Positions 7,071 through 29,493 of a stretch of DNA of 64,000 bases are shown one piece after another; positions within the stretch are counted from its first letter, which is position 1, and every line of letters begins with the position of its first letter. The stretch comes from Planctomycetota bacterium (GTDB lineage Bacteria; Planctomycetota; Planctomycetia; Gemmatales; Gemmataceae), in assembly GCA_021807595.1 (NCBI GenBank), contig JAKBCS010000005.1, positions 1 to 64,000 on the forward strand, in the 5' to 3' direction. The notes below the pieces were generated by a model. It saw nothing but the letters and a program-made list of their open reading frames with translations. It was not told the DNA's origin and made no database searches. Position numbers and translations under genes: made by a program.

Positions 7071-8981
7071 GGTTTTGCCTCAACCTCCGGTCGATCTTGT
7101 ACGAAAACGGCGCGACGCGCGCGCAGCAACTGCCGGATCTGGTCGGCTTCGGCGGACGAGCTTGGCACGCCCATTGCGAGAACGAACCGATCGTCGGTCG
7201 CCCCCGTCGTGGGCGTCACCGCGATCTTGCCCGGATAGAGCCGGCATCGAATCAGCCAAGCCGCCACCAAGCCCAAACCTCCGAACAAGACCATGCACTC
7301 GAAGGTGACCGGCACGAACGACGGCAACGAGTTCCAGGGCTGGCCGCCGACATTGATGGGCCAACTTCGAGCCGACGCCCAAAACTGAAACCACAGCGCC
7401 AGAATCACGCCGGCCGCGCCGCAGGTAAAACAGGCCGCCGCCAGACGCGAACGCCGCCAACCGAGCGATTCCTCCAAACCGTGAACGGGATAGGGACAAT
7501 AAATATCATCTATAGGCCAATTGTGCTTGCGAACGGCGCGGACGGCTTCGACGAGATCGTCCGCCTCCGAAAATACGGCGATAACAGCTTTCGCGCTCGT
7601 CTCCGAAGCCGATGACGGCTCCTCTTTGCTCTTGCTTTGGTGCCGATGTTCCAGGACGCCCTTGACCTCGGAAATGGCGATCATCGGCAGAAAGCGACAG
7701 AAGATCAGAAAGCAAGTGAAGAACAAACCGAAGCTGCCCAGCAGCGTGGCAAGTTCGATGGAGGTCGGCGTGTAGCTGCTCCAACTCGACGGCAGAAAGT
7801 TACGCTCCAACGAGGCAACGATGATAATGAATCGCTCGAACCACATGCCGACGTTAACCAAGACGGCGATGGTAAAGACCGCCGGCAAAAAAGCGCGAAC
7901 GCGGGGCATCCAAAAGAGCTGAGGCAAAAGCACGTTGCAGACTACCATGATGCCATAGCCCCAACCCAAGGGACCGAAGGCGCGATTGAGGAAGGTGAAC
8001 GACTCGTAGCGATTGCCCATGTAGAGCGCGGAGAAGAACTCGATGGCATAGGCCAAGCCCACCAGACAGCTGGTAGTCAGGATAACCTTGGTCATGGCCT
8101 CGATATGGCGTTGGGTGATGTAATCTTCCATGCCCATGACTTTGCGGGCAATCAGCATGAGCGTCAACACCATGGACATGCCGGAGAAGATAGCTCCCGC
8201 CACGAAATAGGGGGGGAAGATGGTCGTGTGCCAGCCGGGCAGTCGTCCGCCGGCGAAATCGGTGCTTACCACGGAATGTACCGAGACGACCAGAGGCGTG
8301 GCCAATCCGGCCAGGAGCATGTACACGATCTCGTAGCGCCGCCAGGTGCGAAATCCGCCGCTCCATCCGAGGCTGAAGAAACTCACCAGGCCGCGATACC
8401 AACCGGGACGGAGACGATCGCGCAGCGCGGCCAAATCGGGAATCAAGCCGATGTACCAGAAGACGAGCGAGATCGTGAAATAGGTGGAGATGGCGAAGAA
8501 ATCCCAATCGAGCGGAGAGCGGAAATTGACCCAGAGCGGTCCGCGCCAATTAGGATAGGGAAAGATCCAATAGAACAGCCAAGGTCGCCCCATGTGGATA
8601 ATGGGGAACAGTCCGGCGCAGGTGACGGCGAACAGTGTCATCGCTTCGGCGGAGCGATTGACCGAGGTGCGCCACTTCTGACGGAACAGGAACAAGATCG
8701 CCGAGATGAACGTACCGGCGTGGCCGATGCCGATCCAAAAGACGAAGTTGGTAATATCGAACGCCCAACCGACGCTGCGGTTGAGCCCCCAGGTTCCGAT
8801 GCCGGTGGCGATTTGATACGTCACCGCGGCCCCTCCCAACAGCAATAGGGCGAACGAAGGCAGAAACGCGAACCACCACAGGCTCGTGGCGCGTCGTTCC
8901 AGCGGGGCGCAGATGTCGGCCGTCACCTGCCCGGTGGACTTGTTGCCGCCGATGAGCGGCACATACGGAGGGATCGAGACA

Positions 8982-8989
<8 letters not shown>
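7067..8989 (-). CDS. actC-actD: Alternative complex III ActC-ActD fusion (NrfD-like membrane subunit + DUF3341)
   Basis: 640 residues. Residues 1 to about 460 are a polytopic NrfD/PsrC-like protein with about ten membrane segments, as in ActC, which probably contains the quinone site. A Lys/Glu/Ser-rich linker (about 455-475) leads into a DUF3341 domain (about 480-640) as in ActD, with the segments EADDLVEAVRAVRKHNWPIDDIY and two hydrophobic helices. In Rhodothermus these are two genes. The reading frame is continuous with no internal stop. It overlaps actB by 8 bases and the actE-like gene by 4, so the operon is translationally coupled. Confidence 0.88.
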
Positions 8990-11993
<3,004 letters not shown>

Positions 11994-13821: not shown

Positions 13822-15801
13822 ATGATCGAGCGAACGAAAATGCGAACGGCCGTTCATTTCGTGTTGTTCCTACTCTTGGGCGCGACGTTGCCGGGTTGCG
13901 GCGGTTGCTCCGGCTCTCCAGCGCCCTCTGCCGATTCGCTGGCGGGATTAATGCGCGAGCGAGGTTTATCGGACGACGACGTGATCGCGGCCCTAAAAAC
14001 CTATACGCCGACGGGTAAGCAAGACACGCACTACTTGATGGCCTCCGGAGGCCACAGCGGACAGCTCATCGTCATCGGCGTTCCCAGTATGCGCATTCTC
14101 AAGTATGTCGGCGTGTTCACGCCGGAGCCGTGGCAGGGTTACGGCTTCGACGACGACACCGCTAAACTACTCCGCGACGGCTCGCCGCCGGAGAAGCTGC
14201 TGACGTGGGGAGACGTGCATCATCCGGCCCTCAGCGAAACTAAGGGCGACTACGATGGCGAGTTCGTGTTCGTCAACGACAAGGCCAATGCCCGCATCGC
14301 CGTCATCAGTCTCAAGGACTTCAACACCGTGCAAATCGTGCGCAGCGGAATCTTGCGCTCCGATCACGGCGGCACCTTTGCGACACCCGATACCGACTAC
14401 GTTGTCGAATCGGGACAATACCCCGTGCCGCTCGACAATGGCTATGCGCCCCTCAATCCGGCCAACTACAACGAGACATATCGCGGGGCGGCGATCTTTT
14501 GGAAGTTCAACCGCGAACGCGGCCGGATCGTACCGGAGGAATCGTTCGCTATCGAGTTGCCTCCATACATGCAAGACATAGCCGATGCCGGGAAATTCGC
14601 CAGCGACGGTTGGTTTTTCCTGAACTCCTTCAACACGGAACGCGCCATTGGTGGCGATAGCGAGGGCAGGCCGCCGTTGGAATCGGGTGCCTCGCAGAAT
14701 GATATGGACTATCTACACGTCATCGACTGGCGCAAGGCGGAACAGGTAGCCAAGCAGGGCCAAACGCAAACGATCCGCGGAATGCGCTTGATTCCCTTGA
14801 AGACGGCCATCGCGGAAGGGCTGTTGTATTTTATCCCCGAACCGAAAAGCCCGCACGGCGTGGACGTGACGCCGGACGGCAAGGACATTTGCGTCTCCGG
14901 TAAATTGGACACGCACGTCACCGTCTACAGTTTCGAGAAGATTAAGCAACGGATCGAGTCCAAGCAGTTCGAGGGCAACGATCCGTATGGCGTGCCGATC
15001 CTGTCGTTCAAGGACACAATCCGCGGTCAAGTCCAAGTCGGTCTGGGGCCGCTGCACACGCAGTTCGACGGCGCGGGCCACGCTTACACCTCGCTTTTCA
15101 TCGAGTCCAAAGTGGCGCGCTGGTCGCTGCAAGATCTGAAAGCGCTCGACAGCATTCCCGTGCATTACAATGTCGGCCATATCTGCGTGGCCGGCGGCGA
15201 CACGGCCCATCCGGACGGCCGCTATCTCGTCTCCATGAATAAATGGTCGATCGACCGCTTCGCTCCGGTCGGCCCGCTGCTGCCGCAGAACTTCCAATTG
15301 ATCGATGTCACCGGCGACAAGATGCGGTTGCTCTACGACATGCCGATCGGTCTGGGGGAACCGCACTACGCGCAGATGATCTCCGCCGACAAGATCAAGC
15401 CGCTGGAGTTTTACAGTCCGGTCGGCATCAATCAAGTGACGCATCGGGCGGACCCCAACGCCACGACCGACGAGAAAAAGGCGCGCGTGGAACGGCACGG
15501 CGACGCGGTGGACGTGTACATGACGGCCATCCGGAGCCACTTCACCCCCGACACGATCCGCGTCAAGCAAGGCGACACGGTCCACGTTCACCTAACGAGC
15601 CTGGAACAGACCCGCGATGCCACGCACGGCTTCGCCCTCAACCATTACAACGTCAACCTCAGTCTGGAGCCGGGAAAGACGGTCAACGTCACGTTCGTCG
15701 CCGACAAGGCGGGAGTCTTCCCGATCTATTGCAGCGAGTTCTGTTCGGCACTGCATCTGGAAATGGCCGGTTATCTGCTTGTGGAGCCGCGAGCGAAGTG
15801 A
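13822..15801 (+). CDS. nosZ: Nitrous oxide reductase NosZ, clade II (atypical)
   Basis: 659 residues. It reduces N2O to N2 in the periplasm. The N-terminal seven-bladed propeller region contains DVHH (131-134) for the CuZ centre, without the third His of the clade I DxHHxH motif. The sequence GLGEPHYAQ stands where EPHD is usually quoted. The C-terminal cupredoxin domain has the CuA ligands C637, C641, H645 and M648 in CSEFCSALHLEM. The export signal is not twin-arginine: a hydrophobic stretch ends in LPGC (Cys26), so this looks Sec-dependent and lipid-anchored. GAGGAG precedes the ATG. No nosR is in the window; nosD, F, L, Y follow. Confidence 0.95.
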   Translation: MIERTKMRTAVHFVLFLLLGATLPGCGGCSGSPAPSADSLAGLMRERGLSDDDVIAALKTYTPTGKQDTHYLMASGGHSGQLIVIGVPSMRILKYVGVFTPEPWQGYGFDDDTAKLLRDGSPPEKLLTWGDVHHPALSETKGDYDGEFVFVNDKANARIAVISLKDFNTVQIVRSGILRSDHGGTFATPDTDYVVESGQYPVPLDNGYAPLNPANYNETYRGAAIFWKFNRERGRIVPEESFAIELPPYMQDIADAGKFASDGWFFLNSFNTERAIGGDSEGRPPLESGASQNDMDYLHVIDWRKAEQVAKQGQTQTIRGMRLIPLKTAIAEGLLYFIPEPKSPHGVDVTPDGKDICVSGKLDTHVTVYSFEKIKQRIESKQFEGNDPYGVPILSFKDTIRGQVQVGLGPLHTQFDGAGHAYTSLFIESKVARWSLQDLKALDSIPVHYNVGHICVAGGDTAHPDGRYLVSMNKWSIDRFAPVGPLLPQNFQLIDVTGDKMRLLYDMPIGLGEPHYAQMISADKIKPLEFYSPVGINQVTHRADPNATTDEKKARVERHGDAVDVYMTAIRSHFTPDTIRVKQGDTVHVHLTSLEQTRDATHGFALNHYNVNLSLEPGKTVNVTFVADKAGVFPIYCSEFCSALHLEMAGYLLVEPRAK

Positions 15802-15834
15802 AGGAGCAAGGCGGCGTCCACAAACAACTTCCGA

Positions 15835-15897
15835 GGTTAGTCGCGATGCGCAGCGGAGCGAGAGACCGTCGCACTTTGCTGCGAGTCGCGGCTAACC
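15835..15897. repeat. GGTTAGC-type palindrome after nosZ
   Basis: GGTTAG (15835-15840) and CTAACC (15892-15897) close a long imperfect hairpin whose arms contain GCGGAGCGAGAG and CTGCGAGTCGCGG. It is a divergent copy of the element at 23141-23200 and lies 34 bases past the nosZ stop. Confidence 0.55.
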
Positions 15898-15924
15898 GAA
15901 ACGAGTGTTCAGACGTGCCCCAAC

Positions 15925-16051
15925 CACAGAGGCACAGAGAAAATAGACACCCGTCTAAGGTGCATTTAAGGAGCAAGCGATGCGCTGGGGCTTTTTCTAT
16001 GGCGTATGTGTTTTCTGCATTTTTCTTCTGTGCGTTCTCCGTGCCTCTGTG
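15925..16051. repeat. Inverted repeat spanning the nosD start
   Basis: CACAGAGGCACAGAGAA (15925-15941) pairs with TTCTCCGTGCCTCTGTG (16035-16051), 16 of 17 positions. The right arm lies inside the signal-peptide codons of nosD; the left arm is upstream of its ribosome binding site. This sequence type occurs as a dispersed repeat in many bacterial genomes. Confidence 0.6.
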
Positions 16052-17299
16052 TTTGATCGAAACTCGGCTCCCTCTCCTTCCCTCGCTCCGCTCCCCGTGC
16101 CCGAGAAGCCGTCGGGAGGGAGGACGATTGTCGCCGGTGCCGAATTACAACTCATTGTGGATAATACCGATCGGGATACAGTTTTTTGCTTATCTCCGGG
16201 CGTCTATACGGGGCCATTAGCGATCCACCGCCCCGTGACGATTTGGGGGCCTCGTGAGGCCGTCATTCGTTCCAACGGCGAAGGCCATACCATCGACGTG
16301 CAGGCCAGCGGAACGCGCTTACTCGGTTTTACAGTGGATGGAAGCGGCGATCGGCCCGACCGCATGGATGCCGCCGTCCACATTCAAGGCGACGATGTGA
16401 CCGTGCGCGGCTTGCGCATTGTCCGCTCCTATTTCGGTCTGGTGGGCGAAAAGTCGAGGCGCATGACTTTGGCGGGCAACGAAATCCTCGGCGATCCGTC
16501 CGTGGCCATCGGACTCCGCGGCGACGCCGTTCGCCTCTGGGAAACGCGCGATTCACTGGTGGCGGACAACCGCATCACGGACAGCAGAGACGTTCTGATC
16601 TGGTACGCGCCGGACAATCGAATCGTCAACAACGATGTCTGCCGCGGCCGCTATGGCACGCACTTCATGTACTGCGATGGCGGCGCGGTCGAAGGCAACC
16701 GCTACCGCGACAACACCGTCGGCGTCTTCGTGATGTATTCCCGCAACGTCCAGGTGCGCGGCAATCTGAACGCGGGTGCCGGTTCGGCTGGCGGCATGGG
16801 TCTGGGCGTCAAGGAATCCGGCAATCTGACGGTCGAAAACAATCGCTTCGTCCAGGATCACGTTGGGTTGTATTTGGACAATTCGCCGTTCCGCAGCGAC
16901 GACAACAATCGCGTGCAAGGCAATCTATTCGCCCTTTGTCAGACCGGCGTTGTCTTCCATTCTAGCCCCGTGCGCAATCGTTTCGTCGAAAACTCGTTTC
17001 GCGCGAACGGGGACCAAGTGCGCGTCGAAGGGCGCGGCAACGCTCTGGCATCGACCTGGAGCGACAACGCCTTCGACGATTATCAGGGTTACGACTTGGA
17101 CGGCGACGGTTACGGCGATGTACCTTATGAATCGCGCAGTCTCTCCAGGCGCTTGATCGGTCGAACGCCGGAATTAGCCTTCTTTTCTGGCACGCCAGCG
17201 TTGGGATTGCTGGAGGCCGTCGGGCATATTTTTCCCCTCTTTCAGCCGGAACCGATGTTCGTCGATCCGCGTCCCCGGATGAAGAGGAACGGTCTTTGA
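15980..17299 (+). CDS. nosD: NosD, copper-site maturation beta-helix protein
   Basis: 439 residues. A hydrophobic N-terminus (FFYGVCVFCIFLLCVLRASVF) acts as a signal or anchor. The body is a parallel beta-helix of about 22-24-residue turns rich in G, N, R, V and D (for example RIVNNDVCRGRYGTHFMYC and GNLTVENNRFVQDHVGLYLD). NosD is a periplasmic protein needed with the NosFY transporter to build the CuZ centre of NosZ. AAGGAG lies 7 bases before the ATG. The leader codons overlap a dispersed repeat, so the signal peptide may be repeat-derived. Confidence 0.92.
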   Translation: MRWGFFYGVCVFCIFLLCVLRASVFDRNSAPSPSLAPLPVPEKPSGGRTIVAGAELQLIVDNTDRDTVFCLSPGVYTGPLAIHRPVTIWGPREAVIRSNGEGHTIDVQASGTRLLGFTVDGSGDRPDRMDAAVHIQGDDVTVRGLRIVRSYFGLVGEKSRRMTLAGNEILGDPSVAIGLRGDAVRLWETRDSLVADNRITDSRDVLIWYAPDNRIVNNDVCRGRYGTHFMYCDGGAVEGNRYRDNTVGVFVMYSRNVQVRGNLNAGAGSAGGMGLGVKESGNLTVENNRFVQDHVGLYLDNSPFRSDDNNRVQGNLFALCQTGVVFHSSPVRNRFVENSFRANGDQVRVEGRGNALASTWSDNAFDDYQGYDLDGDGYGDVPYESRSLSRRLIGRTPELAFFSGTPALGLLEAVGHIFPLFQPEPMFVDPRPRMKRNGL

Positions 17300-17311
17300 G
17301 AAAGGTCGATC

Positions 17312-18208
17312 GTGGACATTACGCTGCGAAACGTGGTGAAGATCTTCGGGAGCATCAAAGTTCTGGACGGCGTTTCCCTGTCCGTTCCCTCGGGGCGGAA
17401 AACGGCGCTCATCGGACCCAACGGATCGGGAAAATCGACTTTGACGCGCATCCTTATGGGCATGTTGGCTTGTGAGGGGGAAGTGCTGCTCGATGGTTTG
17501 TCGCCGTTCGCGCGGCGCGAGCGGCTAGCGCGGCGCATGGCTTACGTTCCTCAGAGTCCGCCGCAATTATCGGCCTCGGTAGCGGACGTGGTCCGCGCCG
17601 TGGCCCGCATCCGCGACCTGGAGGAGCGACGCATCGCCGTCATCGCCGCCCAATTCGATCTGGATCTCGGCGCTTTGGCCGGTCGGCCCATCCGCGCTTT
17701 GTCTGCCGGCATGAAGCAGAAATTACTGATTGCTCTGGCCCTCTCGAGCCGAGCCGATCTGCTCATTCTCGACGAACCGACCGCTAGCCTCGACGTGTCG
17801 GCACGGGCGCGCTTCTTTTCGCTGTTCGCCGAGATGTCCGGCACGGCGACGCTGCTGCTGTGTTCGCATCGGCTAGAAGAGATTCAACATCTGGTCGAAC
17901 ATGTAGTCGCGCTCGACGGTGGGCGAGTGATTTTCGATGGCCCGGTCGAGACGTTTCTTCAGACGCGGGCCGTCTCGCTGATGGAAGTCGTAACGACGCG
18001 GAACTCTCATGCCGATTGGCTGCGCGCCCACGGTTTTCGCCCGGCATTCGGGTCATCGTGGGTGCGCTCCGTGGCACGAGCGGAGAAAATGGCGCTGCTC
18101 AACGAAATCGTGGCGCAGTTCGACGGCGATCTCGACAACGTGGTGATCCGCGATGTCGAAACGCTTTCGGACAAGGCTTGGGAGGCACGCTCATGCGCGG
18201 ATGGGTGA
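17312..18208 (+). CDS. nosF: NosF, ABC transporter ATPase
   Basis: 298 residues from GTG (MDITLRNVVKIF). It has Walker A GPNGSGKST, the signature LSAGMKQKL and Walker B LLILDEPTAS, followed by a switch His (LLCSHRL). It pairs with the NosY permease, and NosDFY is the machinery that supports CuZ assembly by moving a sulfur-containing or other compound. The gene is 12 bases behind nosD and overlaps nosL by 16 bases. Confidence 0.93.
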   Translation: MDITLRNVVKIFGSIKVLDGVSLSVPSGRKTALIGPNGSGKSTLTRILMGMLACEGEVLLDGLSPFARRERLARRMAYVPQSPPQLSASVADVVRAVARIRDLEERRIAVIAAQFDLDLGALAGRPIRALSAGMKQKLLIALALSSRADLLILDEPTASLDVSARARFFSLFAEMSGTATLLLCSHRLEEIQHLVEHVVALDGGRVIFDGPVETFLQTRAVSLMEVVTTRNSHADWLRAHGFRPAFGSSWVRSVARAEKMALLNEIVAQFDGDLDNVVIRDVETLSDKAWEARSCADG

Positions 18209-18642
18209 GGTTCTGTTTGGCCGCGCTGCTCGTGCTGGCCGCGGCGTCGGCGGTCGGTGTGTTGGTGTTGCGTGCGCAGGCGCTGCCCAACGACGTTTGC
18301 CCCGTCGTTTGGGACAAGGAAACCTGCGGCGAGTGCGGCATGGCCGTCAGCGAGCCGCGCTTCGCCGCACAGCTTCAGACGCGCCACGGACAAGTAATCA
18401 ATTTCGACGATCCCGGTTGTCTTTTTATCTACCTTCTTCGCCGCGATCCGCCGGTTCACGCCGTCTACTTTCATCCGCAGGACGGCGAGGGTTGGCTGGA
18501 CGTCGAACGGGTTGGATTCGCGGCAACCCATACCTCGCCAATGGGTTACGGCCTGATGGCTGTGCCGCGCGGCACGCCGGGTTCGCTTTCGTTCGCGGAA
18601 GCGCTCGAGAAAATGCGACGGCGCGAACGCGGGGAGGAATGA
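18193..18642 (+). CDS. nosL: NosL-like copper chaperone
   Basis: 149 residues. An N-terminal membrane helix is followed by CPVVWDKETCGECGM, whose CxxCGM is the copper-binding motif of NosL, then FDDPGCLFIYLL and a Met-containing tail (HTSPMGYGLMAV). The lipobox Cys usual in NosL is not evident, so it may be anchored by the helix instead. GGAGG lies 7 bases before the ATG inside the end of nosF. It overlaps nosY by 4 bases (ATGA). NosL delivers Cu(I) to apo-NosZ. Confidence 0.9.
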   Translation: MRGWVRFCLAALLVLAAASAVGVLVLRAQALPNDVCPVVWDKETCGECGMAVSEPRFAAQLQTRHGQVINFDDPGCLFIYLLRRDPPVHAVYFHPQDGEGWLDVERVGFAATHTSPMGYGLMAVPRGTPGSLSFAEALEKMRRRERGEE

Positions 18643-19484
18643 AAGTGGGCGGATTCAAGCGAATGGCTGCGGTGGCACGCCTCGATTTGGTCGAGGTATT
18701 TCAATCGCGCTGGCTCGTATTTCACAGCGTTCTGTACGCGCTGTTGGCGGCGCTGTTTCTGTTTGCCGGTCTACGCGAATCGAGCGTGCTGGGCTACACC
18801 GGCATGAGTCGTTTGCTGTTGTCGCTGTGCCATGCGTTGATCTTGGTGCTGCCCCTCCTGGCCCTAACGGCGAGTGGACTGGTCGTGAATCGCCATCGAG
18901 AGGACGGCACGCTAGAACTGCTTTTCAGTCTCCCCGTCAGTCGCGGCGAATACTTCGTTGCCGTCTCGGCGGTGCGCTATCTCGTGCTGCTGGTACCGCT
19001 GCTGGTACTGATGCCGTTGCTGGGGTTAGCGGATCGCCTGCTATTCGGCCACGTTGTTCCTTGGGTATTCATCGGTCGAAGTCTGACCATCAGTGCTACT
19101 TTGTTGTGGAGTTTCGCCGGCCTGGGCCTAGCCATTTCTACATTCGTGCGCAATCGCACCAAGGCACTGATGTACTTGCTAATCACCTGGATCGTCTGCG
19201 TGGGTGGACTCGATTTCGCCCTGATGGGACTGATGCTCCAGTGGAGGCTCAATGCCGAGACGGTGTTCGTCCTGTCCGGTCTCAATCCGGTGCAAAGTTC
19301 GCGTCTGGCGCTACTGTCTTCCGCCGAGCCGAGCTTGGCCATCCTCGGCCCGGTCGGCTTCTATCTCGCCAACCGCGTTGGCCATTCTTGGTTGTTTTTG
19401 TTGGGCACGCTTCAGCCGGCACTGATCGGCTGGGCATCTTGGTATGTCGCATGGAGACATTTTCGGCGCGGCGACCTGGTGTGA
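18639..19484 (+). CDS. nosY: NosY, ABC transporter permease
   Basis: 281 residues with six hydrophobic segments in ABC-2 type arrangement, and the soluble motif VVNRHREDGTLELLFSLPVSR that is typical of NosY. The start ATG overlaps the nosL stop. It forms the membrane channel partner of NosF. Confidence 0.92.
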   Translation: MKVGGFKRMAAVARLDLVEVFQSRWLVFHSVLYALLAALFLFAGLRESSVLGYTGMSRLLLSLCHALILVLPLLALTASGLVVNRHREDGTLELLFSLPVSRGEYFVAVSAVRYLVLLVPLLVLMPLLGLADRLLFGHVVPWVFIGRSLTISATLLWSFAGLGLAISTFVRNRTKALMYLLITWIVCVGGLDFALMGLMLQWRLNAETVFVLSGLNPVQSSRLALLSSAEPSLAILGPVGFYLANRVGHSWLFLLGTLQPALIGWASWYVAWRHFRRGDLV

Positions 19485-20518: not shown

Positions 20519-23131
20519 ATGCAGGTGATGTGGACTCGTTGGCTCGGAGCTTGTCTCGCTTTGGCGATGCTGGCTCTTCCCCTCCGTGCCGAACAACCCA
20601 AGGCCGAGACGGACAAACCCTCTCAGCCGTATGTCGTGATGGTCGGCATCAGCAACTACGCCGACAAACAAATCAAATCGAGACCCCACGCCGAGGAAGA
20701 TGCCAAGGCGTTGTTCGATCTGTTCGCGGACAAGAAATATGTCGGCGTCGATGCCGATCATCGACGCCTTCTGCTGGGCGACGCCGCCAAGACGCCCGGC
20801 AGTGAAGCCGCCACGCACGAGAATATCCTCAAAGCCTTGCGCTGGATTGCCGACAAGGCACAACCCGACGATCTCGTCGTGTTCGGATTCTTCGGCGAAG
20901 GCGGGCCTTTAGGCGATAGCGGCTCGCATCGCTGCTATTTCGCCTCGGATTCGACCTTCGAGGGGCGCAACAAGAATGCCGTTGCCACAACGGAGATCTC
21001 CGAGAGCCTGAAGAAACTCAAGAGCCAGCGCTTCTGCGTGCTTCTCGATGTCGATTTCAAAGGTTTTACCACCACCGACAAGAAAGTAGCCGAGCCGACG
21101 CTGGGCAATAATCCGTACCAAGAGTTTCTCGGTTCCGACGAACGGGACGAGGAAGCCAGCAAGCCCGGCCGCGCTGTGTTCCTGGCGGGCAACGGCTTGA
21201 TTCGCTCCCTCGATCTCAAAAAACATGGCGTTTTTGCCGACGCGCTGTTGAAAGGTCTGAAGGGCGAAGCCGACAAGGACGGTTACGAGCCGGACGGCTT
21301 GGTCACCGTCGATGAGTTGACCGAGTATCTCGATAAGGAAATGAAGGAACTGATTCGCACCAACGCCAAGACCAAGGAAGAGCGCGATCAATATTTCGTG
21401 GCGCTGGGTGGGCGCGGCAGCCATTACATCCTCGTAAAGAATCCGGCCGTCACCGGCAGGGTGCGAGAGCAACAAAAGAAGTTTGCCGGGCTGGTGAAAG
21501 AGGACAAGGTTCCCAAGCAGTACGCCGACGAGGGTAAAGCGCTTCTGGAACGCATGCCGCGTCTGGAGGCGCAGCGCAAGCTGCGCAAGAACTACCAAGC
21601 GCTCATTAACGACAAAATCGACCTTAAAAAGTTTCTTGCCGAACGCGAAACCATTCTCGAAAGCACCAAGCTCGATCGCAGCGCAGCCGTCAGCTTCGCC
21701 AAGACGGTCATGAGCGCCATCCGCGAGGTCACGCGCTACTACGTCAAGAAGCTCAATCCCAACGACATGGTGGTTTGGGCCATTAAGGGACTCTATCGAC
21801 AGGTGGACGAAAAACTGCCCGCCAAGATCGAGGCGCAGCTCAAGGGTGTGCCCGAGATGAAGCCCGAAGAGTTGGTCGAGTTGTTGACCGAGGCTCGTTT
21901 GGCGTTGGGCAAGCGCGAAGATCTCGACAAGAACAAAGACATCGATTTCACGCTCAAACGCATGCTCTACAAGCATACCGATCCGTACACGACGTACATC
22001 GACCCCGAAGAGAAGGCAAAGCTGGAAAAGGATATTCGCGGCCGCTTTCCCGGCGTCGGCATCCAGATCCGCAAAGACACTGCCACCGATCAATTGTTGG
22101 TCGTGACGCCGATTAAGGGCAGTCCCGCCTACAAAGCCGGCATTCAGGCGGGCGATCTCATCACCTCCGTGAAGCTGACGGTCGATAAAAAGGGCAACAC
22201 CTTGGATAAGCCCGAAATCATCCCCACCAAGGGGCTGAAACTCAACGATGCCGTCGACAAAATCACCGGCCCAGCCGGGACGCCGGTGCAGCTGACCGTG
22301 TACCGCGAAGGCGAGCCGAAGCCGTTGGTTTTCGATCTCAAACGCGATTACGTCGTGGTCGAATCGGTTCTCGGCTTCAAACGAGACAGCAAGGACGAGT
22401 GGGATTACACGATCGATCCCGTCAACAAAATCGGCTACATTCGTCTCACTCAGTTCGCGCGCAACAGCGATAAGGACATCGAAGAGGTGATGCGCAAATT
22501 GGTAAAGTCCGGTATCAAAGGGTTCATTCTCGATCTTCGCAACAATCCGGGCGGTCTGCTCGACGTGGCCATCCATATCTCCGACCTGTTCGTCGATGAC
22601 GGCGTGATCGTGAGTATCCGCGAGCGCGGCACGCCGGAGCAAGAGTTCGGCGGCCATTCGAACGATAGCTTGCTCGACTTCCCGATGGTCTGTCTCATCA
22701 ACGGCTACAGTGCCAGCGGTAGCGAGATTGTCTCGGCGTGTTTGCAAGATCACGACCGCGCCTATCTGATCGGCGAGCGCAGCTACGGCAAGGGCAGTGT
22801 GCAGCACATTCGCGGATTTCGCCCGACCGGAGGCGAGATCAAGTTGACAACAGCCACCTTCTGGAGGCCGAGCAAGAAGAACCTGAACAAAGCCAGCACC
22901 TCCGGCAAAGAAGAAGAAGTGTGGGGCGTCACGCCTAACAAAATCATCAAACTGTCGCCGAAGGAGCATGTGGATCTGGAAGAACACCTCCACTCCGCCG
23001 AGGTGATCCGACCAAAAGTGAAACCGGGAGAAGCGAAGAAGTTCGAGGACAAACAACTCGACGAAGCGCTTCGATACCTGCGCGGCCAAATCAGCACGGC
23101 CAGCCGCGACGGGACAAAGAAGGCCGGATAA
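20519..23131 (+). CDS. Inactive caspase-like domain fused to CtpA-type S41 protease
   Basis: 870 residues with a signal peptide (LGACLALAMLALPLRA). Residues about 38-310 resemble a peptidase C14 caspase fold (YVVMVGISNYAD...), but the usual GHG His is Glu127 (FFGEGG) and the usual D-A-C-H-S-G Cys is Asp179 (DVDFKG), so this domain should be catalytically dead. A charged helical linker follows, then a PDZ domain (about 500-610, GVGIQI...GIQAGDLI) and an S41 peptidase core. There Ser733 (SASGSE) and Lys758 (YGKGS) are 25 residues apart, as in tail-specific proteases. It should cut proteins with exposed C-termini in the periplasm; the dead domain may regulate or recruit. Confidence 0.85.
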   Translation: MQVMWTRWLGACLALAMLALPLRAEQPKAETDKPSQPYVVMVGISNYADKQIKSRPHAEEDAKALFDLFADKKYVGVDADHRRLLLGDAAKTPGSEAATHENILKALRWIADKAQPDDLVVFGFFGEGGPLGDSGSHRCYFASDSTFEGRNKNAVATTEISESLKKLKSQRFCVLLDVDFKGFTTTDKKVAEPTLGNNPYQEFLGSDERDEEASKPGRAVFLAGNGLIRSLDLKKHGVFADALLKGLKGEADKDGYEPDGLVTVDELTEYLDKEMKELIRTNAKTKEERDQYFVALGGRGSHYILVKNPAVTGRVREQQKKFAGLVKEDKVPKQYADEGKALLERMPRLEAQRKLRKNYQALINDKIDLKKFLAERETILESTKLDRSAAVSFAKTVMSAIREVTRYYVKKLNPNDMVVWAIKGLYRQVDEKLPAKIEAQLKGVPEMKPEELVELLTEARLALGKREDLDKNKDIDFTLKRMLYKHTDPYTTYIDPEEKAKLEKDIRGRFPGVGIQIRKDTATDQLLVVTPIKGSPAYKAGIQAGDLITSVKLTVDKKGNTLDKPEIIPTKGLKLNDAVDKITGPAGTPVQLTVYREGEPKPLVFDLKRDYVVVESVLGFKRDSKDEWDYTIDPVNKIGYIRLTQFARNSDKDIEEVMRKLVKSGIKGFILDLRNNPGGLLDVAIHISDLFVDDGVIVSIRERGTPEQEFGGHSNDSLLDFPMVCLINGYSASGSEIVSACLQDHDRAYLIGERSYGKGSVQHIRGFRPTGGEIKLTTATFWRPSKKNLNKASTSGKEEEVWGVTPNKIIKLSPKEHVDLEEHLHSAEVIRPKVKPGEAKKFEDKQLDEALRYLRGQISTASRDGTKKAG

Positions 23132-25478: not shown

Positions 25479-25831
25479 ACGTGCGAAGTCGATCGAACGA
25501 AGTACATCGGGTAGAACGAATTGAAGTGAAGACGGTTCGGTCGAACAGCTCGAATGGCAAGGATTAACCGTACAGCACTCATCCCCTTTCTCCATTACAC
25601 AGGGGCAGAGGACTTGGGGGTGGGAAGGCTTGAATGTTCATTGACAATTTCGATTTGTTGCCTATGAATAGTTTACCCCGCAATCACAGTTGAAGTATAA
25701 ATAAGGAAGCGGGCCGCGAGGGGCGAATGGTAAGGCTCGATTTCTATGCGAGATTACTGCGGCGCACGCTTGGTAACGCATCCGAAATGCGACCGACATG
25801 GTGCCTGAGTTTTTCATCACGGAGAACATCA
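25479..25831. other. Intergenic region with promoter
   Basis: 353 bases without a supportable gene; contains the promoter candidate at 25641-25668 for the downstream hydrolases. Confidence 0.5.
25641..25668 (+). promoter_or_regulatory. Candidate sigma-70 promoter
   Basis: TTGACA (25641-25646), 16-base spacer, TATGAA (25663-25668). It would start transcription about 155 bases before the first SGNH hydrolase gene. Confidence 0.4.
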
Positions 25832-28339
25832 ATGCGTCGATTTACTTCTGCACTCGTCTTCATGCTGGTTCTCCACGACTCTTACCTCTGGTCCCAGGCT
25901 CCAGGCGGTTCGACAGTAAAACCCGTGAAGGTGTTCCTGCTCGCCGGTCAATCCAATATGGAGGGACATGGATTCGTGAAGGCGGAAGCACGCCGTAATG
26001 GAGGTAAAGGAAGTCTGGAATATCTGACGAAAGATCCGGCCTCGGCCAACAAATATAAACATTTATTGGACAAGGATGGCAAATGGGTGGTCCGCGACGA
26101 CGTCTGGATTCACTATTTGAATCGCAAGGGAAAACTCGCGGTAGGATACGGAGTAAAAGAGGATCGCATCGGACCGGAACTTGGATTCGGCCATGCGATC
26201 GGCGAAGCGTATGAGGAACCCGTTCTCCTGATCAAGCTCGCCTGGGGTGGGAAGAGTCTGGGTCAGGATTTTCGCCCGCCGAGTTCGGGCGGCACCGTGG
26301 GGGAGTATTACAAGAAAATCGTCGAGCAAACGAAAGAAGTACTCGGCAATCTCAAGAAGGAGTTTCCCGAGTTCGGCGACCGAGGGTACGAACTGGTGGG
26401 ATTCGGCTGGCACCAGGGATGGAACGATCGAGTCAACCAAGCCTTTGCCGACGAGTACGAGAAGAACATGGTCAACTTTATCCGCGATATCCGCAAGGAT
26501 CTCGGTGTGAAGAACCTGCCCTTCGTGATTGCCGAGACGGGCATGGGCGGCAAAGAAGAGAAGCACCCGCGCGCCTTGGCGCTGATGAAAGCTCAGGCGG
26601 CGGTTGCCGACTATAAGGAATTCAAAGGAAACGTGGCATTCGTTGGCACTCGCGAGTTCTGGCGCGAGAAAGAGGTGTCGCCGTCCGGCCAGGGTTATCA
26701 CTGGAACACCAATGCCGAGACGTATTATCTCATCGGCGAGGCGATGGGACGCGCGATGCTCACGATGTGTCGGCCTCGCGCAGCCACGCCAAAAACGCCA
26801 CAAGCCGGCGAAATGGCGGGCTATCTCCTGGTGCCGAACGAGAGAGTGGACAAGGATTATAATGGCGGTTATTCCATGTATGTTGCGGCATGGCCCTTAT
26901 TGCAGCAATATCCCGGCGATCGTTTTCAAACGGGGCTTTTCGGAACCTGGATGTTTGCTCAGAACGATAAACAACCGGAAGGCAAGCATTATTCGGACAT
27001 CGAAGGCGGTCTCGGCTGGTGGCGAGACACGCGCTTCGCCACGACGACACCGAAATTTATTATGGGCGGTGTCGCCTTGAATTTTAGCGAATGGGCCAAC
27101 GGGCCCGGTGCCGGAAAGGGGCGAAACTGGGAGAAACCAGCCGGGCATTACGGCATTGCGCATCTGAGTCCGTGGGTGCTGTGGCCGCCGGACGGTTTGA
27201 ATCTCAAACAAGGGACGTGCGGCGAGCTTTTCGGGTACGGTTATTTGCCTCTACCGCTGACATCGCCCAAAGCCACCACCGCTGGCAAAGACATTCCGAC
27301 GGGAAACAACTGTTGGACGCTGTTTCTCAATACCGCCAATTTCAAAGGCCCCGTCGCATTCTTCACTCCTTATTTTTGGAGTAAGCCAACATTGAAGAAC
27401 CCCGCCATGAGCGGACAATTCCTCGATGCGAGGCCATCGAACCCCCACCGGGCTTTGCAGATGGAAACGCAATATATCCCTTGCTTTCTCGGCACCGATG
27501 CCAACGGTAGAACCTTTGCGCGTATTGCCCCAACATCGTTCCCCAGAAATGTGAAGGGCGATTCGGTCGTGGTTCATCGGATCACCTCATACAAAAAAGA
27601 GGCCCTGTGGGATCGAGTGCAAACCTGGCTCGACGGAGGCGATGCCGTTTCCGGAGCCATCGACATAAAGTTTTCAGCGTTACACAAATTCGGGGACCGA
27701 GGCGGCTCGACCTGGCAAATCTATGCCCCCAACACTCCGAAAGACGCGAAGGCTCGAATCGACTGGAATGCGTTTGCAACTCCCGTCGCACTCGACGACA
27801 ACACTTATGGATTCAAATGGAACGAAGGAATGGCGACTAAGAATGGGTCGCTCACAAAACTACCCGAATACTACCAATTGGTTAAGAACAAAAACAAAAA
27901 AGACCAATGGCAAGTGGTTTCCGAACGAGACGTGCCTGCGGAAACCGGGTTGGCGAAGGCGACGTTCAATCCGCCGCCCCAATCGAGTCGTCCACAGCCC
28001 TACGTCACTCCAGAGGATCCGAAAGGTTGCTGGAAAACTCCCGGTCCCAAGGCCGGTCCCTTTACCGCGAAACTCGGCGATGGCAGCGTCGTAACCTATT
28101 ACTGGTATCGCTTCGCCGATCAGCCCGCGCTTCTGAATGCCGATCTATCGGACGACGAGCGCGAAAGCCTTCAGAAAAAGGTGGAAAAAATCCACCGCCA
28201 CTGGAGCAGAGATAAGGAATACCTACCTCCCAACACCGTCGGCACCCTGGCCGGTATCGACCCGGCGTTACTGGTGACGCCGCCCAAGGGCATGGAAATC
28301 GGTTATGTGCCGATCGCAACTCGACAAGGATTAAAATGA
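25832..28339 (+). CDS. Secreted sialate-O-acetylesterase-like SGNH hydrolase with large C-terminal region
   Basis: 835 residues. A signal peptide (MRRFTSALVFMLVLHDSYLW) precedes an esterase domain (about 25-310) with VFLLAGQSNMEGHG, where Ser is the nucleophile, and GFGWHQGWND holding other conserved SASA-family positions. The remaining 520 residues (from about TPKTPQAGEMAGY on) are rich in Trp, Gly and Pro, and I do not recognise a named domain there. GGAG lies 8 bases before the ATG. The next gene is a shorter paralogue of the esterase domain only. Likely acts on acylated polysaccharides outside the cell. Confidence 0.8.
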   Translation: MRRFTSALVFMLVLHDSYLWSQAPGGSTVKPVKVFLLAGQSNMEGHGFVKAEARRNGGKGSLEYLTKDPASANKYKHLLDKDGKWVVRDDVWIHYLNRKGKLAVGYGVKEDRIGPELGFGHAIGEAYEEPVLLIKLAWGGKSLGQDFRPPSSGGTVGEYYKKIVEQTKEVLGNLKKEFPEFGDRGYELVGFGWHQGWNDRVNQAFADEYEKNMVNFIRDIRKDLGVKNLPFVIAETGMGGKEEKHPRALALMKAQAAVADYKEFKGNVAFVGTREFWREKEVSPSGQGYHWNTNAETYYLIGEAMGRAMLTMCRPRAATPKTPQAGEMAGYLLVPNERVDKDYNGGYSMYVAAWPLLQQYPGDRFQTGLFGTWMFAQNDKQPEGKHYSDIEGGLGWWRDTRFATTTPKFIMGGVALNFSEWANGPGAGKGRNWEKPAGHYGIAHLSPWVLWPPDGLNLKQGTCGELFGYGYLPLPLTSPKATTAGKDIPTGNNCWTLFLNTANFKGPVAFFTPYFWSKPTLKNPAMSGQFLDARPSNPHRALQMETQYIPCFLGTDANGRTFARIAPTSFPRNVKGDSVVVHRITSYKKEALWDRVQTWLDGGDAVSGAIDIKFSALHKFGDRGGSTWQIYAPNTPKDAKARIDWNAFATPVALDDNTYGFKWNEGMATKNGSLTKLPEYYQLVKNKNKKDQWQVVSERDVPAETGLAKATFNPPPQSSRPQPYVTPEDPKGCWKTPGPKAGPFTAKLGDGSVVTYYWYRFADQPALLNADLSDDERESLQKKVEKIHRHWSRDKEYLPPNTVGTLAGIDPALLVTPPKGMEIGYVPIATRQGLK

Positions 28340-28410
28340 TTACCGGCTGCGATAGCGTTCGTCGCACTCGTCGAATGGACCAACTGTAGAGATGCCACAG
28401 GAGTATTCCC

Positions 28411-29493
28411 ATGTTCTTCCGTTTGATTATGCGAAGTGGATTGTTCGGGATACTGTTTTTCTTCGCAGGTTCGGTTATTCCTCAAGAGCAGGCAGACGTT
28501 TCCCTCAAGCCCGACGGTAAGACCGGCGCGGCTAATAAACCCATTAAGGTGTTTATCCTGATGGGGCAATCGAATATGGTCGGCATGGGAGACATCGGCC
28601 CCGCGACGAAAAAAGGAACGCTCGAATACTTCACGAAAACGGAGAAGAAATATCCGTGGCTCGTCGATTCCGATGGGAAATGGACCGAACGCAAAGACGT
28701 GTATTATTACGATGCCCGCGTCAAAAAGGGGGCCGCTCTCAGTCCGACTGCCAACAACGGAAAATCGATCGGACCCGAATTGGGTTTTGGATACGTTATG
28801 GGGCATGTACTTGAGGAGCCGGTCTTGGTTCTGAAATCGTGCATCGGCAATCGCAGTCTGGGATGGGATCTTCTTCCCCCTGGCAGCAAGCCCTACTCGT
28901 TCGAGGGCCGAATGTACGCGGGCTATAAGGACACGCCCGACTCGTGGGTGGAGGGACAACCTAAGAAACCGGTCAATTGGTATGCGGGTAAACAATACGA
29001 CGACGACATGGCCAATGCCAAGGCAGCGCTCAAGAGCATCGCCAAGTGGTATCCGGATTACAAAGACCAAGGATACGAGATCGTTGGTTTCGTCTGGTGG
29101 CAAGGACACAAGGACACCGGCAGCGCCGCCCACGCCAGTCGGTACGAAGAAAACCTGGTACGCCTGATCGAGAGCCTGCGGACGGACTACGACGCGCCGA
29201 AGGCCAAATTCGTCTTGGCGACGATTGGGTTCGATGGGTGGAAGCTGGAGAATCGGGGACTGACGATCGCCAAGGCGCAGCTCGCCGTGGGGGATGCGAA
29301 GAAGTATCCGAAATTCGCCGGAAACGTGAAGGTAGTCGAGTCTCGCGATCTGTGGCGAGCCGCGGATGTCTCGCCGAATCCGAGACAAGGCTACCACTAC
29401 AATCGCAACGCGCAAACCTATCTGGAAGTCGGACTCCGTCTCGGTTGGGCCATGGATGCGCTCTTGAAGGACGAGAGGCCGCCAGGAAAATAG
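28411..29493 (+). CDS. Secreted sialate-O-acetylesterase-like SGNH hydrolase
   Basis: 360 residues with a signal peptide. The motifs VFILMGQSNMVGMGD (Ser nucleophile), GPELGFGYVMG and FVWWQGHKDTG match the esterase domain of the gene just upstream, from which it probably arose by tandem duplication; the large C-terminal region is missing here. The family removes O-acyl groups from sugars or related carbohydrates. 71-base gap to the upstream gene, likely the same operon. Confidence 0.82.
   Translation: MFFRLIMRSGLFGILFFFAGSVIPQEQADVSLKPDGKTGAANKPIKVFILMGQSNMVGMGDIGPATKKGTLEYFTKTEKKYPWLVDSDGKWTERKDVYYYDARVKKGAALSPTANNGKSIGPELGFGYVMGHVLEEPVLVLKSCIGNRSLGWDLLPPGSKPYSFEGRMYAGYKDTPDSWVEGQPKKPVNWYAGKQYDDDMANAKAALKSIAKWYPDYKDQGYEIVGFVWWQGHKDTGSAAHASRYEENLVRLIESLRTDYDAPKAKFVLATIGFDGWKLENRGLTIAKAQLAVGDAKKYPKFAGNVKVVESRDLWRAADVSPNPRQGYHYNRNAQTYLEVGLRLGWAMDALLKDERPPGK

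Follow-up and report, generated by a model that had tools for sequence, protein, structure and literature searches.

A predicted pseudo-caspase domain joined to a CTP-family S41 protease in planctomycetes

A gene in the window, the whole 64,000-nucleotide stretch of planctomycete DNA that was analysed, encodes a protein in which a caspase-like domain is joined to an S41 peptidase. The caspase-like domain fits a pseudo-orthocaspase in its fold and its replaced catalytic dyad and is predicted to be proteolytically dead, while the protease half carries the residues of a working enzyme of the CTP/Prc family. The fusion recurs in nearly every sampled genome of the window's family, and we propose, with modest confidence and from sequence features, that the pseudo-caspase acts as an in-cis, non-catalytic receptor or regulator of the CTP protease.

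Domain Organization of the Fusion Protein

The protein consists, in order, of a putative signal peptide, a caspase-like domain, a helical connector, N-terminal helices like those of CtpB and CtpA, a PDZ domain, the S41 protease and a C-terminal helix (Table 1), and the codons of E127, D179, S733, K758 and Q762 were checked directly in the DNA. The preliminary description had placed the protein in the periplasm, and its export is supported by the signal-peptide-like N-terminus, whose hydrophobic stretch is above threshold in 41 of 42 relatives and at threshold in the remaining one. The profile matches to the CtpB and CtpA helices are weak (E ~0.04-0.05), and PF22694 was detected in 12 of 43 relatives. 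A predicted model of the full-length protein, with a mean pLDDT of 84 and a moderate pTM of 0.65, has CtpA, Prc and CtpB as its best solved matches, and shows no confidently predicted contact of the S41 core with the caspase domain.

Table 1. Features of the fusion gene and its product, with positions in the window.
Feature	Position	Strand	Basis
Whole gene, pseudo-caspase/CTP fusion, 870 aa	20519..23131	+	ORF from ATG at 20519 to TAA at 23131, stop codon included
Signal-peptide-like N-terminus, ~residues 1-24	20519..20590	+	Hydrophobic helix
Predicted pseudo-caspase domain, ~residues 36-307	20624..21439	+	Profiles, predicted model, fold search
Arg55	20681..20683	+	Alignment; mostly Arg in the fusions (89%), mostly Leu in the comparison domains (86%)
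Asp61	20699..20701	+	Conservation count; retained in 85/87
Glu127, at the catalytic His position	20897..20899	+	Alignment, codon read
Arg150	20966..20968	+	Alignment; mostly Arg in the fusions (92%), mostly Leu in the comparison domains (81%)
Asp177	21047..21049	+	Conservation count; retained in 86/87
Asp179, at the catalytic Cys position	21053..21055	+	Alignment, codon read
EF-hand-like acidic loop, residues 252-266 (DKDGYEPDGLVTVDE)	21272..21316	+	D252 in 85/87, D259 in 86/87, E266 in 86/87
Helical connector, residues 309-386	21443..21676	+	Predicted models
N-terminal helices resembling CtpB/CtpA, ~residues 387-505	21677..22033	+	Weak profile matches
PDZ domain, ~residues 509-608	22043..22342	+	Pfam, full-length model
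S41 protease core, ~residues 616-795	22364..22903	+	Pfam, NCBIfam, fold search
Catalytic Ser733	22715..22717	+	Alignment, codon read
Catalytic Lys758	22790..22792	+	Alignment, codon read
Gln762, third CTP triad residue	22802..22804	+	Retained in 83 fusions, replaced by Ala or Val in 3
C-terminal helix, residues 845-869	23051..23125	+	Full-length model

Caspase Fold and Loss of the Catalytic Dyad

By sequence profile and structural model, the N-terminal domain is a caspase p20-type fold. Pfam Peptidase_C14 is absent from the scan of the full-length protein and rises above its gathering score (29.2 vs 21.4 bits) with the N-terminal part scanned alone. The NCBIfam caspase model NF047832 matches 43 of 43 relatives at E <= 0.01, and the window protein at E 3.5e-13, yet under the model's curated cut-off. 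A predicted model of residues 30-465 (mean pLDDT 91.4, pTM 0.83) has metacaspases and MALT1 as its best solved matches in the PDB, with E values of ~1e-9 to 1e-7. The preliminary description had called this domain caspase-like and proposed structure prediction and comparison with C14 peptidases as a check; the profiles and the confident model uphold that assignment, the fold being caspase-like and not an unrelated one. A chance resemblance to caspases was considered and is ruled out by the profiles, the fold search and the 87 relatives.

Glu127 and Asp179 were correctly read at the outset as standing at the positions of the catalytic His and Cys, respectively, as both the alignment and the codons confirm. 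A search for the same fusion, also proposed in the preliminary description, found the His replaced in 87 of 87 distinct fusions and the Cys in 86 of 87, the one protein that has it (L044) belonging to a neighbouring order. The residue at the His position is variable (Q, R, E, S, N or A) and that at the Cys position is mostly N, H, Q, D, A or S. Among 36 non-fused caspase-like domains from sampled planctomycete genomes, a non-random set of profile hits picked by similarity to the fusion profile, the His is found in 34 and the Cys in 33 as aligned, or 34 when L158, whose Cys lies one column off in the alignment, is counted. Since the His is present in 0/87 fusions and 34/36 non-fused domains, the split between dead and live domains is not due to chance; both sets are phylogenetically non-independent. 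The two comparison domains without the His, L163 and L165, are pseudo-variants; these are caspase-like planctomycete proteins without an S41 domain, with Asn/Ser and Tyr/Ser at the dyad positions, that cluster together in the tree.

Active-site residues at shifted positions, which would have spoken against this reading, are ruled out, as no conserved Cys/His pair is seen at shifted positions across the fusions, and the N-terminal domain contains no Cys, Ser or His that is near-invariant among them. A recent loss confined to one genome is likewise ruled out, the dyad loss being group-wide, and by alignment this loss is fixed throughout the fusion group. In the window's genome, a six-frame family search for Pfam C14, which did not list the fusion itself, returned L001 (G000:C255:7572-8303, - strand) as the sole match; this protein retains the His (VVVFFVGHS) but has LDSN at the expected Cys, and may be a second pseudo-caspase.

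Conserved and Gained Residues in the Pseudo-Caspase

Twelve residues of the domain reach 97% conservation or more across the fusions: D49, D61, D118, G128, D177, F239, G249, D252, G255, E257, D259 and E266. D61, D177 and the acidic loop are near-invariant, whereas both dyad positions vary freely in the same alignment; these acidic features are also common among intact caspase-like domains and could be structural. In trypanosome MCA2, Asp211 precedes the Cys by two residues, and D177 stands at the same distance from the Cys position; from the motif spacing of the family, we take Asp61 and Asp177 to be the probable equivalents of Asp95 and Asp211 in the S1 pocket of MCA2. These two MCA2 residues belong to its acidic substrate pocket (PMC6426788).

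The acidic loop of the window protein is a 15-residue variant with the outer acids kept, and does not match the canonical 12-residue EF-hand loop; its sequence resembles an EF-hand loop with an insertion and is possibly a metal site. Arg55 and Arg150, which have taken the place of Leu in most fusions, though not in every member from the neighbouring order, might occupy the acidic pocket, blocking ligand binding.

The S41 Protease Half

TIGR00225 is above its cut-off (280.1 vs 218.6 bits), and the PDZ domain that precedes the protease core is recovered both in the Pfam scan, with PF17820 and PF13180 above cut-off, and in the predicted model. On this basis the protein is a CTP/Prc-family S41 peptidase, and its protease half is predicted to be active. 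The original label of a CtpA-type protease stands as far as the CTP/Prc family is concerned and not in its narrower sense, the protein scoring far below the cut-offs of the NCBIfam CtpA, CtpB and CtpC models (227 vs 625, 216 vs 633 and 247 vs 665 bits, respectively). The live Ser733-Lys758 dyad, its 25-residue spacing and the PDZ domain, all claimed from the first reading, are borne out, and the Ser and Lys are both present in 86/86 fusions whose open frame covers them. The frame of L043 stops at the contig end before the dyad, and that of L058 is broken by a frameshift, beyond which both motifs, Ser and Lys, continue in the next frame. A frameshift or stop also interrupts the assembled fusions of L041 and L042. 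The genomes (G227, G161 and G262) of the three loci with Ala or Val in place of Gln762 (L089, L096 and L115) hold another copy.

Distribution and Selection

In a class-wide search of 298 genomes, with counts tallied by eye from the result table, 74 of the 76 genomes from the window's family carried the fusion, as did 5 of 7 from the sister family and all 3 from the neighbouring order, and no comparably strong match was found elsewhere among the 298. In two of the positive genomes, G035 and G042, an assembly frameshift or stop breaks the fusion. Across 392 sampled genomes of the phylum, no match of fusion strength fell outside the class. In a quick tree, midpoint-rooted for drawing only, a single branch with an SH-aLRT of 90 divides the fusions from the other domains. 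No fusion of a live caspase to S41 occurs among the 36 comparison domains; an additional scan of contigs relied on one short motif and was not exhaustive.

In three pairs of close relatives, the dN/dS of the caspase domain is 0.04, 0.08 and 0.11 and that of the S41 domain 0.08, 0.03 and 0.13, the third pair being close to saturation at synonymous sites, and the caspase domain lies below the connector. Because purifying selection on the caspase domain is in the same range as on the S41 domain, the former is not decaying, and decay of a dead domain is ruled out by these ratios. Judged by these sequence comparisons, both halves are conserved over the long term and the pseudo-caspase is maintained.

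Genomic Neighbourhood

A comparison of 68 loci revealed no conserved gene neighbour pointing to a pathway or operon. The largest real class of shared neighbours is found at 22 of the 68 loci, upstream and on the same strand; a class of 63 loci, nearly all on the opposite strand, was set aside as probable antisense ORFs lying within the fusion gene. The genes next to the fusion in the window reappear only at loci from the nearest genome, L003 and L048 being one and the same 6837-base contig. Upstream of the fusion, at 13822-19484, the window carries a cluster of the nitrous oxide reductase type, encoding a nos_propeller protein, NosD, an ABC ATPase and an ABC-2 membrane protein, and at 25727-29493 it carries two successive genes whose products have SASA-type (sialic acid-specific acetylesterase) domains. 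At L136, two adjoining genes (~7290-11611) encode caspase-like domains with His and Cys intact, followed by WD40 repeats; among non-fused proteins, they match the N-terminal profile best.

Comparison with Known Systems

Pseudo-caspases are common in bacteria, and their roles are mostly unknown. Pseudo-orthocaspases have already been described, including those of Rhizobiales in which a half-broken dyad accompanies an intact trypsin-like domain (PMC6426788). These trypsin-like/QC proteins share with the planctomycete fusion a caspase p20 domain whose dyad is broken, in one chain with a serine protease whose own catalytic residues are intact (PMC6426788). In the alphaproteobacterial proteins, however, the protease is trypsin-like, N-terminal and built on a His-Asp-Ser triad, only the His of the caspase dyad is replaced, the Cys being kept, and DUF4384 is C-terminal, whereas the planctomycete protein has a C-terminal S41 protease with a PDZ domain, replacement of both residues and a signal peptide. 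No trypsin domain was found in the Pfam scan of the fusion, and the Cys is absent in 86/87, unlike in the Rhizobiales group. The cyanobacterial YS/YN pseudo-orthocaspases have a dead dyad, a caspase fold and a conserved acidic specificity pocket in common with the fusion; their dyad positions are mostly Tyr-Ser or Tyr-Asn, with no S41 partner mentioned (PMC6426788), whereas those of the fusion are Q/R/E/S/N/A with N/H/Q/D/A/S.

On the protease side, the Pseudomonas aeruginosa CtpA-LbcA and E. coli Prc-NlpI systems likewise comprise exported CTPs with PDZ and S41 domains, in which a partner sets activity or substrate choice (PMC11021448, PMC12749690). That partner is a separate TPR lipoprotein, whereas the extra domain of the fusion is a covalently joined pseudo-caspase. 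Human FLIP(L) is a pseudo-caspase that is regarded as a protease regulator (PMC7586951), as is proposed here; it is a separate protein and a paralogue of the caspases it regulates, whereas the fusion shares one chain with an unrelated serine protease. The literature searched, into which few subscription papers fell, contained no description of the PDZ-S41 pairing, the loss of both residues or the near-universal presence in a family, and an in-cis caspase-fold adaptor was not found described in it for either protease family.

Proposed Role of the Pseudo-Caspase

A dead domain that steers a live one, as the preliminary description suggested, is plausible. The pseudo-caspase would bind and not cut, taking a basic residue of a substrate or ligand into the retained acidic pocket, and a metal in the acidic loop would possibly stabilise this binding. 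Through the helical connector, it would recruit substrates to the N-terminal helices and PDZ gate of the CTP or alter their state, thereby filling in cis the part that separate lipoproteins play in trans, LbcA for CtpA and NlpI for Prc. In the CtpA dimer of Pseudomonas, LbcA places its helix H1 between the two N-terminal H1 helices, with activation of one subunit (PMC11021448). The extra domain of the fusion is joined directly ahead of the region corresponding to these LbcA-engaged helices, to which the helix match is weak. A fuller version, which we put forward tentatively, is that the caspase fold was converted, probably once in a planctomycete ancestor, to an in-cis CTP adaptor that reads basic residues, leaving them uncleaved, and gates or feeds the S41 protease.

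A pseudo-caspase of purely structural function, setting oligomer geometry, solubility or periplasmic attachment with no ligand, is unlikely, yet it would agree with the variable N- and C-terminal regions that determine the oligomeric form of CTPs (PMC12749690), with the presence of many of the domain's most conserved, perhaps structural, residues in intact caspases, and with a pocket that Arg55 and Arg150 may fill. However, the near-invariant acids around the dead site exceed the needs of a spacer, and, by dN/dS, the domain is constrained as strongly as the S41 core and more strongly than the connector. We regard as more doubtful still an autoinhibitory cap whose displacement or removal would be needed for the S41 core to act; CTPs with PDZ-gated resting states are known (PMC11021448, PMC12749690) and a large helix-joined N-terminal domain could gate likewise, but no conserved processing site was identified between the domains and the full-length model places them in no confident contact.

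The group-specific Arg55, Arg150 and Glu257 would suit another enzymatic activity, with residues recruited elsewhere on the fold, and pseudo-enzymes sometimes have migrated catalytic residues (PMC10211241); the lack of a near-invariant Cys, Ser or His across the fusions makes this very improbable. A neutral relic of an old fusion, to which the unconstrained dyad positions would correspond, is scarcely credible given a dN/dS well under 1 and retention in 74 of 76 genomes of the family.

As the dead caspase is chained to an assayable protease, its role is directly testable. If true, its proposed function as an in-cis receptor or regulator would add a covalent, non-TPR way of controlling CTP proteases, and suggests that, in nearly a whole planctomycete family, a retired protease domain may have become the internal receptor or switch of an active protease.
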